Source: Candidatus Daviesbacteria bacterium (GTDB lineage: Bacteria; Patescibacteriota; Microgenomatia; Daviesbacterales; UBA10151). From it: a stretch of DNA of 38,833 nucleotides. Made by a program: the position numbers and the translations under genes. Below are positions 18,942-36,656 of the stretch, piece after piece. Location: assembly GCA_016183305.1 (NCBI GenBank), contig JACPEW010000026.1:1-38833 (forward strand), given 5' to 3'. The notes under the pieces were generated by a model. The model was not told where the DNA came from. It was given only the letters and a program-made list of their open reading frames with translations, and did no database searches. Position 1 is the first letter of the stretch, and the number at the start of each line of letters is the position of its first letter.

Positions 18942-21128
18942 GTGGACTCAAAAGATTTGTTAGTTCCTCTCAATTTAGGTATTGTTGGCTATGGGTTTGT
19001 GGGCCAGGCTGTAGCTAATGGCTTTAATGTTTCCTCAAAAGGCAAGGATATTATCCGCTACTATGATAAATTCAAAGATACTTTATCTTTAGAAGAAGTT
19101 ATTACCAAATCAGAAGTGATAGTAGTAGCCTTGCCTACCCCTATGAGAGAGGATGAATCTGGGATAGATTTAACTATTTTGGAAGAAATGGCAGGGGAGA
19201 TAACTAAATTTACAGATAATACAGATAAGATAATTTTAATTAAATCCACAGTAATCCCAGGCACAACAGCTGCTTTAGAAGAAAAATATCCCAAATCCCA
19301 TTTTGCCTTTAGCCCGGAATTTTTAACAGAGGCTAATTTTTTAGAAGATTTTATCAATGCTGACAGGACCATAATTGGGGCTAGTAATGATTTAGTTTCC
19401 AGAAGGCTGGCTGTTATTTTTAAACAAAGGTTTCCTAAAACAATAATTTTCCAAACAGACCCAACCACAGCAGAAACAGTTAAGTATTTTGCTAATGCTT
19501 ATCTTTCTTTAAAAGTTACTTTTGCTAATTTTATGTATGATTATTGTCAAAAAAAGGGAATTAAGTATGAGGAAGTTAAAAAAATGGCTGCCATAGACCC
19601 AAGGATTATTGATGCTCATTTAGAAGTTACTACTATGAGGGGGTTTGGGGGGAAATGTCTAGCTCCGGAAGAAAGGATATTTGCTTTTAATAGCAGCAAG
19701 CTGAAAGTTATAAGGGCCAAAAATATAAACAATAAGGTAGTTGGAGTTTTGGGATGGAAGGATGGAAAAATCATCAAAGATGATTTGATGATTGCAGGCT
19801 CTAGAAAAGTTGACCATTTGCTTAAGTTCTCTCTTTCTAAAGGCAGGGACCTAACTGTAACATCAGACCATATTATGATCGTTGCTGATAAAGATGGCAA
19901 TTTAAGCCAGAAGGAAGCATTCGAGGTTAAAAAAGATGATTATATCCCTGTAATCTTAGATGGACTTAAAGAACCGCAGGCAAAAGAACATAAAGTAGCT
20001 ATTAAATTATACAAGGAAGTTGATTTATCCAAATATAAAACATTTGTAGAAAATCTGCCTAAATCTCATGCGGGATTGCTAAAACCTTACCTATCTTTTC
20101 ACCAATATAAATCATCTGCCCGTAAAAGAGTATACTCCGTACCTCTTAAAGCCTGTTTGGATGCTGGGATTAATATTGATTCACTGCGGATTAAAACAAA
20201 TAAAACCGGGACTTGGGTTCCAGCAGTTATCCAGGTAAATGAGGATTTTGCCAGACTTGTTGGATACTATTTATCAAAAGGTTGTGTTAGTGATGGCAAG
20301 GTATTTATTTCCTTTTCTTTTTTAGAAAAGGATTTGATCCTAGATGTTAAAAATATCTTACAAAGTTTAAATATCAAATTTAGTATGCAAACACTTTATT
20401 GGCAAGGCCATGAGAACGCAGTTAACATAAAGATTTCCTCTCCCATTTTATCTTCTTATTTTTCAAGCTTTGGCACTAATTCCTCAAATAAAACTATCCC
20501 CTATTTTATTTTTCATTCAAATCAAGCAATTAAAGATAATCTCCTAGCAGGTATCCTAAGAGGAGATGGCTCTATATTTTCTTCCAATATGGGTAATTAC
20601 TGGACTGTTAATTTATCTACTACCAGCCAAATCTTAGCAGAAGGAGTTGATGCTTTACTTAGGGAAAAGGGCATTTTAGCCAATATAGGAACTGTTAAGA
20701 CTGCAAAAACTAAAAGTTATGTTTGGTCATTAGATGTTTCTGAGCGGGAGAGCGTACAAAAGCTTTTATTACTTTTTACTCCCGGACAAAGGTCTAAAGT
20801 TAAAGAGACAGGAATAAGGATAATCAAATCACCTGCTTATTCAAAAATTAGAAATCTTGCTTTACTTAATATTAAAAACATTGAAAATATTCAAAAATCC
20901 AGTCTCGTTTATTCAATAGAAACTAAAAACCATTATTACATTACCTCCTGGGGAATACTAACCCACAACTGTTTTCCAAAAGATTTAGTAGCTTTAATAG
21001 GGGAGTTTAAAAAAGCAGGAGTGGATTCCTCACTTTTGGAAACTATGTGGAAATACAATAAAAAAATCAGAAAAACCCATGATTGGGAAGAGATACCTTT
21101 TGTAGTAGGAAGCAAACCAAAGCATTAG
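18942..21128 (+). CDS. UDP-glucose/GDP-mannose dehydrogenase family protein with intein
   Basis: A 728-aa precursor. The extein (residues 1-238 plus 677-728, 290 aa) begins with the Rossmann motif GIVGYGFVG (13-21) and continues through SPEFLTEANFLEDF (124-137) to RGFGGK, directly joined after splicing to CFPKDL, which rebuilds the family active-site motif GGxCFPKD. The enzyme oxidises a UDP-sugar C6 alcohol to the acid using NAD. At 290 aa it has the NAD-binding and central domains but not the usual C-terminal UDP-binding domain of 430-450 aa members, so it may be a short lineage-specific form or may act on another substrate. The start is GTG, with a strong promoter placing transcription at it. 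Confidence 0.88.
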   Translation: MDSKDLLVPLNLGIVGYGFVGQAVANGFNVSSKGKDIIRYYDKFKDTLSLEEVITKSEVIVVALPTPMREDESGIDLTILEEMAGEITKFTDNTDKIILIKSTVIPGTTAALEEKYPKSHFAFSPEFLTEANFLEDFINADRTIIGASNDLVSRRLAVIFKQRFPKTIIFQTDPTTAETVKYFANAYLSLKVTFANFMYDYCQKKGIKYEEVKKMAAIDPRIIDAHLEVTTMRGFGGKCLAPEERIFAFNSSKLKVIRAKNINNKVVGVLGWKDGKIIKDDLMIAGSRKVDHLLKFSLSKGRDLTVTSDHIMIVADKDGNLSQKEAFEVKKDDYIPVILDGLKEPQAKEHKVAIKLYKEVDLSKYKTFVENLPKSHAGLLKPYLSFHQYKSSARKRVYSVPLKACLDAGINIDSLRIKTNKTGTWVPAVIQVNEDFARLVGYYLSKGCVSDGKVFISFSFLEKDLILDVKNILQSLNIKFSMQTLYWQGHENAVNIKISSPILSSYFSSFGTNSSNKTIPYFIFHSNQAIKDNLLAGILRGDGSIFSSNMGNYWTVNLSTTSQILAEGVDALLREKGILANIGTVKTAKTKSYVWSLDVSERESVQKLLLLFTPGQRSKVKETGIRIIKSPAYSKIRNLALLNIKNIENIQKSSLVYSIETKNHYYITSWGILTHNCFPKDLVALIGEFKKAGVDSSLLETMWKYNKKIRKTHDWEEIPFVVGSKPKH
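19656..20969 (+). mobile_element. Intein (438 aa) with LAGLIDADG domain
   Basis: Residues 239-676 of the precursor. Block A starts with Cys239 (CLAPEERIF). Block B is LTVTSDHIMI with the TxxH set Thr307 and His310. Block F is VYSIETKNHYYITSWGI, and block G ends THN (674-676) before Cys677. All splicing residues (Cys1, TxxH, terminal HN, Cys+1) are present, so splicing should work. Between them is a LAGLIDADG endonuclease with motifs at LVGYYLSKG (439-447) and LLAGILRGDG (534-543). The first motif has Lys where the catalytic Asp belongs. Confidence 0.93.
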
Positions 21129-33331: not shown

Positions 33332-33883
33332 TTAAAACTTGACTGAAATATCTGCTTTTTCTTCTTCTCCCGCTTTGAAGAATTCTTCCTTTTGGAAGTT
33401 AAAAATAGATCCTACCCAGGCAGAAGGAATAGTTTCTAAATTATTATTTAAATCTAAAACATTAGTATTATAAAATTGCCTGGAAGCTGCTACTTTAGTT
33501 TCAGTATCAGAAAGCTCATCCTGGAGTTGTTTAAAGTTTTCTGAAGCTCTAAGTTGGGGATAGTTCTCAGCAACAGCAAACAGGGATTTTAAAGCCCCTG
33601 ATAACATATTATTGGCATCTGCTGCCTGATGAGGATCTTTTGCTCCCATTAAAGCTGTTCTTGCCTTAGTTACCTCTTCTAAAACTCCTTTTTCGTGCTT
33701 TGCATAACCTTTAACTGTTTCAACCAGGTTAGGAATTAAAGAGGATCTTCTTTTAAGCTGAACATCAATTTGGGACCAGGCTTCTCTAACTCTATTTCTA
33801 AGAGTTACTAAGGAATTATAAGTAGCAAGCAGCCATAAAATTGTTAAAACAACTATCCCAATAACAACGTATGTTGTAATCAC
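33332..33883 (-). CDS. lemA: LemA family membrane protein
   Basis: A 183-aa protein with one N-terminal membrane helix (3-22) and a long helical domain. [20 protein letters not shown] (26-45) and [21 protein letters not shown] carry the family signature. The role is poorly defined and often linked to HtpX-type proteases. The start is GTG, overlapping the polX stop by 4 bp. Confidence 0.95.
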
Positions 33884-35628
33884 ATCTTTATATTAAACCA
33901 ATCTGTAAAACTTGTCCAGTCCCAGGTATTAACAATATCTTTTTTAGTTACCCAGCCTCTTCTAGCAACAGCTACGCCAAACCTCATATTATCCATCTGG
34001 GAAACTTGATGGGCATCAGTATTAATAATAAACTTAACTCCAAACTTTAAAGCTTGTCTTATTAAATCATCTCTTAGATCCAATCTATTAGGATAAGCAT
34101 TTATTTCCAGTAGTTTCTTATTTTTAGCAGCTAACTTAAAAATTGTTTCCCAATCAATAACTGATGATTCCCTTTCATTAATCAATCTGTTAGAAGGATG
34201 GGAAATTATATCTACATAAGGACTCTCCAAAGCTTTAATTAATCTATTAGTAATTTTTTCTTTTAAAGAATGGTGGCCACTATGAATTCCAGCAATACAA
34301 TAATCAAGCATTGCTAAAGCCTCTTCAGGAACACTTAAAGAACCATCACCAAGAATATCTATTTCAAGTCCATTTAGTACCCGGATACTTTTTGTCCTCA
34401 GGTGTAAACTATGGATAAATTTTGTCCTCTTTTCTGTCCATTTAGTTATTTGCTCCTTGCTAACTGATGTAAAACCCGGAGGATGGTCAGAAATACCCAC
34501 ATAACTATATCCTAAACTTATAGCTTTTTTTACCATTACTTCTACTGGATCAACCCCTGGGCCATGGGAAGGATTTGAAATAGGATAACTGGAATGCAGA
34601 TGAAGATCGCCCTTAATATCTTCAAGTTTAACTAGGTTTGGTAATTTATGCTCTACAGCTGCTTCAATCTCCCCTGTATCCTCTCTTGTCTCTGGCGGGG
34701 GAGTCTGCATGCCAAGTAAACTATAAAGCTCCTCTTCTGTCTCGCATCTAATAATTCCATTATTTTGACTTTTCTTTATTCCATACTCACTGACTGAGTA
34801 TCCTTTTTGCTGAGCATACGTCCTCAAATGAATATTATGGCTTTTAGAGCCTGTGAAGTGCTGCAAAAGGGCTCCAAAACTATCAGGCTGGCCAACTAAT
34901 AAATCAGCTTGGATACCACTTTTAAGTACCACTGTAGCCTTGTTTTTCCCCTGGTCTAAAACTCTAACAATACCAGGAATCCTGCAAAAATAATCTACTA
35001 CTTCCTGAGAAGAATTTGAGCTGACAGCAAAATCCAAATCCCCTATTGTTGCCACCATCCTTCTTAAAGATCCCAAAGGATAAACTTGTATTACTGCTGA
35101 ATTCTTTTTTAAATATTCTAATATTTTATCTGCCTGGGCAGCTGCATATGGTAAAAGCATCCTATGATCTCTTTGATCTAAACTATGAAAGCCAAACATA
35201 ATTTTTTGGGCAATTTTGGCAGAAAATCCTTTGTCTACCAGTTCCCCTGTTTTAATTTGTTTTCTTAATTCTCCTAAATTTTTTACTCCCAATGAAGCTA
35301 TACTCTGAGCAGTTTTTGGTCCGACACCAGGAATATCTAAAAGCTCAAAAATAATTTGTGGTATTCCCTCTTCTACTTTCTCAAAATGTTTAACTTTACC
35401 TGTGGTAAACAACTCATTCAAATACTCTTGCAGTTTAGCTCCTAAAGCTGGAATTTGAGATAATTTTCCTTCCTGCCAAAGATCTTCTACCTCAGCAGTT
35501 GAGTGTTCAATAGAGGATGAAGCATTTTCATAGGCTCTGATTTGGAATATATTACCCACACCTTTAATGGTATAAGCAGCAGCTACATTTTTGAGGATCT
35601 TAGCCAGCTGTTGATTAGAGAATTCCAT
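33880..35628 (-). CDS. polX: DNA polymerase X family protein with PHP domain
   Basis: A 582-aa repair polymerase. The ATG at 35628 gives the normal N-terminus [19 protein letters not shown]; the frame is open 25 codons further up but those overlap the divergent endonuclease gene. The 8-kDa-like domain and helix-hairpin-helix ([17 protein letters not shown]) precede the palm with [17 protein letters not shown], whose DLD supplies the metal ligands. The C-terminal PHP domain has [12 protein letters not shown] and [11 protein letters not shown], as in bacterial PolX with 3'-5' exonuclease activity. A weak promoter (CTGCAA, 17 bp, TATATT at 35643-35638) precedes it. It heads the minus-strand run. 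Confidence 0.94.
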
Positions 35629-35692
35629 ATTAATCGTAATATAGCACTTATTGACAATGCTTGCAGTATGTTTTAACTTATAGATAACCCAA

Positions 35693-36391
35693 ATGAAACC
35701 CAAAATCTCAAAGCGTTGGCCAGAGCGATCTGTTGAAACTTTCTTTGATATCTGGAACCCAGATATGGCTTATGTGCTTGGTTATTTCGCTGCTGATGGA
35801 TCCATGTATCAAAATAAGCGAGGCTCTTGTTATATTGCTTTTACTTCCACAGATAGAGATCTTATAGCTCAAGTCAAGAATATCATGAAAGTATCAAATA
35901 GAATTGAAGTCTACCAGGCTAAAGAGAAACCTAATCAGAAATTAAGATATACTTTGCAAATTGGCAGTAAATCAATTTTTGGCAAATTACTCAAACTCGG
36001 GTTCACTCCTAACAAAAGTTTAACTCTAAAGTTTCCTCCAGTTTCAGATGATCTTATAGGTCATTTCTTACGCGGGTATTTTGACGGTGATGGCTGCGCC
36101 TCATTTGTATACTACAAGCGTAAAAATAGGAAAAACTTACAAAGAATCCTAAATATGAGAATAAGATGTGGTAGTAAAGAATTTATCCAAATACTTCAAA
36201 ATAAACTTGCTGAAATAAAACACACTAAAGGGTTGTTATATTTCCATAGTGGCGCCTACGAACTAGTATATAGAGCTAAGGATGTGATAAAATTGTACAG
36301 CTTTGCGTACCCTACTTTAGTTGTACCTTGCTTAAAAAGAAAAAGAGATATACTAATAAAGGGACTTAAAGCATTTAATGTGGGGCCGTAG
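35693..36391 (+). CDS. Free-standing LAGLIDADG homing endonuclease next to an intron-bearing tRNA
   Basis: A 232-aa protein with two LAGLIDADG motifs, VLGYFAADG (28-36) and LRGYFDGDG (126-134). Both keep the metal-binding Asp (35 and 133), so it is a monomeric two-motif enzyme that looks catalytically intact. No splicing blocks are present, so it is not an intein. The reading frame ends ...NVGP-stop, and its last ten bases (36382-36391) are the first ten of the mature tRNA-Asp. The tRNA carries a group I intron with no reading frame of its own, so this enzyme is the best candidate to mobilise it from outside. A TTGACA (35651) upstream has no strong -10. Confidence 0.88.
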   Translation: MKPKISKRWPERSVETFFDIWNPDMAYVLGYFAADGSMYQNKRGSCYIAFTSTDRDLIAQVKNIMKVSNRIEVYQAKEKPNQKLRYTLQIGSKSIFGKLLKLGFTPNKSLTLKFPPVSDDLIGHFLRGYFDGDGCASFVYYKRKNRKNLQRILNMRIRCGSKEFIQILQNKLAEIKHTKGLLYFHSGAYELVYRAKDVIKLYSFAYPTLVVPCLKRKRDILIKGLKAFNVGP

Positions 36392-36656
36392 CTCAGTTGG
36401 TTAGAGCGCCTCCCTGTAGAATTGCAGCTCCCAAAGGAAACTTTGGGATGAATAATTCTGGGATAACGGTGAAGGCTAAAGTCTTTAAGATATGCAAATA
36501 CCGTGGGAATCCATTTAGGGTGGAGCGCCGTAGAGACTAGATACCAGAATACCTAAATCTTATTTCAAGATAAGGTAAAGATATAGTCCATGCCAATATG
36601 AAAATACTGGAGACCATGCACGGAGGAGGTCGCGGGTTCGAGTCCCGTCGGCCCCG
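36382..36656 (+). tRNA. tRNA-Asp (GUC) split by a group I intron
   Basis: Exon 1 is 36382-36417 and exon 2 is 36619-36656, giving a 74-nt tRNA. The acceptor is GGGGCCG/CGGCCCC, the D arm GCTC/GAGC, and the anticodon stem CCTCC/GGAGG has the loop CTGT|CAC with anticodon GTC. The variable loop is AGGTC and the T arm GCGGG-TTCGAGT-CCCGT. Discriminator G73 and the loop CTGTCAC match Asp identity. CCA is not encoded. The intron lies between U35 and C36. The only nearby promoter-like site is TTGCTT/TATACT (36328-36354, 15-bp spacer) inside the endonuclease gene, so co-transcription is likely. Confidence 0.93.
36418..36618 (+). other. Group I intron in tRNA-Asp anticodon
   Basis: A 201-nt intron. 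Exon 1 ends in U and the intron ends in G (36618), as group I requires. P1 is CUGU (36414-36417) with GCAG (36424-36427), giving the U-G pair at the splice site. P2 is CCCAAAG-GAAA-CTTTGGG (36430-36447). P3 is ATTCTGG (36455-36461) with CCAGAAT (36544-36550). P4 is ACGGT (36466-36470) with ACCGT (36500-36504). P7 is GACTA (36535-36539) with TAGTC (36584-36588). P8 is CTTAT with ATAAG (36559-36563, 36570-36574). It has no reading frame of its own. The set leaves little doubt; splicing should need no protein or only general helpers. Confidence 0.93.

Follow-up and report, generated by a model that had tools for sequence, protein, structure and literature searches.

Group I introns in the anticodon loop of bacterial tRNA genes are known from tRNA-Leu(UAA) and tRNA-fMet of cyanobacteria, tRNA-Ile(CAU) of Azoarcus and tRNA-Arg(CCU) of alpha-proteobacteria. 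The Azoarcus-like tRNA introns of subgroup IC3 have a compact core, with the GNRA loops of P2 and P9 positioned opposite receptors in P8 and P5, and the cyanobacterial tRNA-fMet intron encodes within itself an endonuclease, I-SspI, that is not known to be of the LAGLIDADG type. Here we analyze a group I intron in the tRNA-Asp(GUC) gene of a Candidatus Daviesbacteria contig of 38,833 nt (the window). It shares with the known introns the location in the anticodon loop, a short P1 with a U.G pair and a terminal G, and at 201 nt it is close to their size (about 200–250 nt); unlike them, it resides in tRNA-Asp and interrupts the gene between positions 35 and 36, a site in common with the tRNA-Asn genes of its relatives.

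In reviews, cyanobacteria and the alpha- and beta-proteobacteria are the only sources listed for bacterial tRNA group I introns (PMC4033280, PMC8450103, PMC3984707). A brief remark on newly closed genomes, mostly from the CPR, states that some of their tRNAs contain group I introns (PMC8172020), and a 2025 preprint deals with group I introns in Patescibacteria tRNAs (bioRxiv 10.1101/2025.07.03.662931, cited in PMC12641178). As cited there, the introns of the preprint belong to the same phylum-level group and gene class as that of the window, which limits the novelty of the latter.

Collaborative homing, in which an intron is accompanied by a free-standing endonuclease, is known from phages (PMC2988022, PMC10448857). 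As in those systems, the window has an endonuclease gene outside of, but adjoining, an intron-bearing essential gene; it differs in that this is a cellular tRNA gene, the endonuclease is of the LAGLIDADG family, its ORF ends inside the tRNA and its cleavage is a prediction. Like the product of the window ORF, both I-SspI and T4 SegB are homing endonucleases tied to tRNA genes. SegB, from a phage tRNA cluster, is a GIY-YIG enzyme whose target lies between tRNA genes (PMC2988022). In the CPR, rRNA introns also contain LAGLIDADG endonucleases, as exemplified by I-ShaI (PMC11270868); these share with the window ORF the protein family, the bacterial radiation and the link to structural RNA genes; however, they lie inside rRNA insertions, whereas the family of the window ORF abuts tRNA genes, outside introns. 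In the literature, we found no endonuclease described as ending within a tRNA gene.

The Split tRNA-Asp Gene

The preliminary description had proposed that exons 36382–36417 and 36619–36656 give a clean tRNA-Asp upon removal of a 201-nt insert between U35 and C36, and these coordinates are exact. The joined exons were recognized by ARAGORN as a 74-nt tRNA-Asp(GUC) with a complete cloverleaf and a GUC anticodon, and its intron mode returned a 201-nt intron with the junction between cctgt and cacgg. The splice junction is fixed by genome G351, from another family, because the intronless gene in its polX-flanked tRNA-Asp locus matches the spliced sequence at all 74 bases; this is also the type of intronless allele for which a search of relatives had been suggested. 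The 3′ exon does not encode CCA. With the Rfam group I model RF00028, the insert scored 55.0 bits (E 2e-11), above the gathering score of 50, so that the covariance search agrees with the proposed group I core, and it is the only match to this model in the 940-kb assembly. Conversely, ARAGORN with default settings reported a tRNA-Glu alone in the window, and nothing at the split tRNA-Asp. The features of the locus are collected in Table 1.

Table 1. Features of the split tRNA-Asp locus (window coordinates).
Feature	Position	Strand	Evidence
polX, divergent neighbor marking the orthologous tRNA-Asp locus; outside the element	33880–35628	−	NCBIfam PolX, 424.9 bits, slightly below the cut-off of 426
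Two-motif LAGLIDADG_3 ORF, 232 aa	35693–36391	+	Pfam PF14528, E 3e-14; AlphaFold2 pLDDT 91.8
tRNA-Asp(GUC) 5′ exon, 36 nt, last base U35 (standard numbering)	36382–36417	+	ARAGORN, spliced and intron mode; identity to G351
P1: exon CUGU (36414–36417, C32–U35) with IGS GCAG (36424–36427)	36414–36427	+	Sequence; invariant in 8 introns
Group I intron, 201 nt, first base A, last base omega-G	36418–36618	+	RF00028, 55.0 bits; covariation on 8 homologs
P2: 8-bp hairpin, GAAA loop	36429–36448	+	Both-side changes in 5/8 pairs
P3: AUUCUGG/CCAGAAU, 7 perfect pairs	36455–36461 with 36544–36550	+	Both-side changes in 4/7 pairs
P4: ACGGU/ACCGU, 5 pairs, around P5	36466–36470 with 36500–36504 (36466–36504)	+	Sequence; 8-intron alignment
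P7 (guanosine site): GACUA/UAGUC, 5 pairs	36535–36539 with 36584–36588 (36535–36588)	+	Invariant in 8 introns
P8	36551–36576	+	Sequence; 8-intron alignment
P9.0-like pairing CAU/AUG and P9 hairpin (GAAA loop), then omega-G	36589–36618	+	Sequence; 8-intron alignment
tRNA-Asp 3′ exon, C36 to discriminator G73	36619–36656	+	ARAGORN; query 238–275 100% identical to G351

The assembly (0.94 Mb, 85% complete) corresponds to a Patescibacteria-like genome and contains 39 intact tRNA matches above the Rfam cut-off, none of them for Asp. A search of this 85%-complete assembly with the whole split gene found no second tRNA-Asp copy, and hence no other intact tRNA-Asp(GUC) of the kind that the preliminary description had named as contrary evidence; tRNA-Cys, tRNA-Ala and tRNA-Ile(GAU) were likewise not found in it. 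It is therefore likely, for an assembly that is 85% complete, that the genome has no second tRNA-Asp and, because the split gene is the only copy found, an essential tRNA would likely depend on self-splicing.

When ten split tRNA-Asp genes were joined in silico, 98.6% of the cloverleaf cells paired and both-side changes were evident at 8 cloverleaf pairs. The intron separates the two bases of pair 28:42, for which C-G, A-U, U-A, and G-C are all observed, depending on the species; since the anticodon-stem pairs covary across the intron, selection has acted on the joined product. In the window copy all the cloverleaf stems are intact. Genome G065 contains two split tRNA-Asp genes, on C24 (L050) and C17 (L265), and each of them is accompanied by an endonuclease of its own. 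Stem mismatches occur in the copy on C24, at whose locus no neighboring polX was found. As a whole, the tRNA-Asp gene of the window does contain a group I intron, which is very probably functional.

Structure and Covariation of the Ribozyme

The preliminary description had listed a P1 with U-G at the splice site, a GAAA-capped P2, P3, P4, P7, P8 and a terminal G, each of which can be recognized in the sequence; the U.G at the 5′ splice site and the terminal G are present in all 8 aligned introns, and P7 encloses the 3′ strand of P3 and P8. The pseudoknotted structure accommodates these 8 homologous introns with 92.3% of the cells paired, vs. 36–43% when it is slid by 1–3 columns. Across the same introns, 21 pairs show both-side changes, a number that none of 500 shuffles reached (mean 11.8); P1, P6, and P7 do not vary among them and so contribute no covariation evidence either way. 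Near the 3′ end, the CAU/AUG pairing is replaced by CAC/GUG in 3 of the 8 introns, i.e., U-A to C-G with changes on both sides.

Both P2 and P9 are capped by GAAA loops, and motifs resembling CUAA...UAUG are found in P5 and, less exactly, in P8. By analogy with IC3 introns, this suggests that the motif in P5 could be a tetraloop receptor like theirs. A search for P10 in the window intron gave nothing convincing, this pairing being weak or absent.

Distribution of Related Introns

Group I intron matches are present in 35 of the 45 genomes of the GTDB family of the window, and their hosts, besides rRNA, are tRNA-Asp, tRNA-Asn(GUU) split between GU and U, and a CAU-anticodon tRNA split at 33/34. 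The latter shows high RF00028 scores (loci L078, L079, L084, L085, L086, and L088). The tRNA-Asn(GUU) of many relatives, overlooked in the preliminary description, is split at 35/36, the same position as in tRNA-Asp (loci L077, L080, L081, L083, L087, L090, L092–L096, L099, L303–L311, and L313). ARAGORN often misnamed these genes; for several neighbors it gave labels such as tRNA-Thr, tRNA-Gln, or tRNA-Leu, which were rejected because the genes are tRNA-Asn once spliced after CUGU. Both Asp and Asn tRNAs have C32-U33-G34-U35, so a single IGS (GCAG) would serve both, and tRNA-Asn(GUU) would be split at the same point because of this common CUGU target.

A pattern combining the tRNA 5′ half and the IGS was found in 20 of 374 genomes of the class, and in none with the reversed control. 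Judged by their second exon, eight of these correspond to Asp, with two intron types, and ten to Asn, the others being one locus cut by the contig end and one false match. The Asp intron occurs in Zambryskibacteria RIFOXYD1_FULL_40_13 and Nomurabacteria RIFCSPLOWO2_12_FULL_44_11, as well as in REEB12 and isolate clean1861. Nine Asp introns, including that of the window, form one clade (96/89), composed of G000 (the window genome), G030, G021, G065 (two copies), G344, Zambryskibacteria, REEB12, and Nomurabacteria. The intron is thus not a one-off, as the tRNA-Asp genes of other genera and families carry orthologous introns. Three Asp introns from family f17 group instead with Asn introns; with a p-AU of 0.19 for a single Asp clade, the tree neither demonstrates nor rejects a common origin for the Asp introns as a whole. 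A viral scan for the split-tRNA pattern retrieved only the gap-4 form, without a detectable intron, and in the scan of genome contigs the matches listed were mostly of this gap-4 form, their count being no estimate of prevalence.

Intronless tRNA-Asp genes of the family often show an unusual D-arm or a U32 anticodon loop (loci L058–L060, L062, L063, L067, and L071; L061, L064, L066, L068, and L072; and L253), and are possibly alleles resistant to the intron or the endonuclease, or the result of drift. Separately, relative G015 gave a hit for the group II intron family RF01998 directly downstream of a 16S rRNA gene (L037, 2106–2178).

The Adjacent LAGLIDADG Endonuclease

Also overlooked in the preliminary description was a LAGLIDADG ORF that runs into exon 1 and whose stop codon, TAG, consists of nucleotides 8–10 of tRNA-Asp (36389–36391). 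Both LAGLIDADG motifs are intact, and their acidic residues D35 and D133 are invariant in 25 sequences. A fold search with the predicted structure retrieved LAGLIDADG homing endonucleases as the best PDB matches, the nearest being I-Tsp061I, while a PDB sequence search gave no real homolog and a viral scan found no relatives. From its motifs and modeled fold, the product of the ORF is a putative LAGLIDADG homing endonuclease with predicted site-specific cleavage activity. Elsewhere in the window (18942–21128), a UDP-glucose dehydrogenase ORF contains an intein with a LAGLIDADG_3 endonuclease domain.

Among 36 homologous ORF loci from the family and the class, 31 have a tRNA no more than about 65 nt away, and the ORF runs into the downstream tRNA in 20 of those 31. 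The endonuclease tree sorts by tRNA, with all Leu-associated sequences in one clade (100/100) and those associated with Cys and Asp in the other. Relatives at tRNA-Leu mostly extend into its 5′ end and those at tRNA-Cys mostly follow its 3′ end; in other Patescibacteria, ORFs at these two tRNAs were seen in loci L259, L260, L262, L264, L267, L269, L270, L289, and L291–L295, and L256, L257, L280, L281, and L285–L287. Most endonucleases of this family abut intronless tRNAs.

The endonuclease adjoins the split tRNA-Asp in G000, G021, G065 (both copies), and G344, a genome from another family whose endonuclease is only 34% identical, and it is degenerate in REEB12. The intron is kept without an adjacent endonuclease in G030 and Zambryskibacteria, whereas in G001 the endonuclease lies beside an intronless tRNA-Asp, indicating that both are separable; G022 retains a fragment. 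We found no endonuclease next to any Asn, CAU or f17 Asp intron in the sample. For the tRNA-Asp loci of the family, an endonuclease is adjacent in 4/5 vs. 2/24 (Fisher p 0.003, relatedness ignored) and, by intron lineage, in 6/8 assessable vs. 0/27 (Fisher p 2e-5, relatedness ignored). Additionally, for G000, G065-C24, and G021, the tree of the intron is in agreement with that of the endonuclease. In several lineages, therefore, an endonuclease lies outside of and next to the intron-bearing gene, the arrangement that characterizes collaborative homing.

History of the Locus

Among the homologous loci compared, 25 have polX as a neighbor of tRNA-Asp. In empty loci with a divergent polX, the gap between polX and the tRNA is often of some tens of bases and contains promoter-like sequence. 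In the window, a TTGACA is found within 35647–35693, where a consensus promoter scan flagged nothing, and the ORF begins right after this promoter-like region; it thus appears to have been inserted in the tRNA leader. The ORF probably shares the tRNA promoter, in which case cleavage by RNase P would strip it of its stop codon.

In the polX tree, G000 groups with members of its genus that have an empty locus, whereas the closest relative of its intron comes from a different genus. The distribution of the intron conflicts with the tree of the host polX, requiring at least four changes, a pattern that would fit either transfer or repeated loss.

Proposed Mechanism and Alternatives

We propose that, upon folding of the precursor, exon CUGU pairs with the IGS GCAG to form P1; an external guanosine held by P7 would then attack after U35, and the freed U35 would attack after omega-G, joining the exons into a normal tRNA-Asp. 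The free-standing LAGLIDADG gene occupying the 5′ leader of this tRNA would encode an enzyme that cuts element-free tRNA-Asp at a presumed site within it, and repair from the donor would copy intron and endonuclease together, so that the intron lineage could persist and spread through collaborative homing. Collaborative homing with the adjacent endonuclease is, on balance, our best account of the spread of the intron; taken loosely together, a group I intron and collaborative homing make up an account that we hold with good confidence. More tentatively, and with somewhat less than even confidence, we suggest that this LAGLIDADG family is specialized by isotype (Leu, Cys, and Asp), often resides in the leader of a tRNA and has a stop codon that falls within the tRNA itself, and is limited in expression by the stopless message that RNase P would leave; at tRNA-Asp, pairing with a group I intron would make it a cellular collaborative-homing element whose intron shields the host gene from the endonuclease.

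A self-splicing intron could instead have been inherited vertically, with occasional loss, next to an unrelated tRNA-targeting endonuclease that shares the locus by chance. The presence of same-family endonucleases at intronless tRNA-Leu and tRNA-Cys, and of the intron alone in G030 and Zambryskibacteria, agrees with such a history, which we nevertheless consider rather unlikely: adjacency is confined to one intron lineage, the intron and endonuclease trees are congruent for the three copies named above (G000, G065-C24, and G021), and the intron distribution departs from host polX. These solitary introns and the relatives at intronless tRNAs also argue against the LAGLIDADG protein being a maturase that aids splicing, like I-AniI or the bI3 maturase, as does the invariance of its catalytic-type D35 and D133, which is expected under selection for DNA cleavage. 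Although the matches of the predicted fold include I-AniI and the bI3 maturase, and the protein would be co-transcribed with its substrate, we give this role only a slim chance.

The least probable reading takes the split gene for a pseudogene, decaying or unspliced, and places an intact tRNA-Asp in the missing 15% of the genome. It draws on the incomplete assembly, in which three other tRNAs were also not found, and on the stem mismatch in the C24 copy of G065; against it, the cloverleaf of the window copy is intact, the stems covary across the intron between species, and the gene occupies the orthologous polX locus, where relatives keep tRNA-Asp.

Significance

The CUGU target shared by tRNA-Asp and tRNA-Asn suggests why these introns affect tRNAs with GUN anticodons. 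Intron-blind tools miss the split tRNA and, because ARAGORN in default mode does not find it, Patescibacteria may wrongly appear to lack tRNA-Asp or tRNA-Asn. An endonuclease ending inside a tRNA would allow collaborative homing, for which the described cases are mainly from phages, to be tested directly in a cellular context. Likewise, an essential tRNA that is spliced in its anticodon would be a strong test of the safety of ribozymes in the core genes of minimal genomes.
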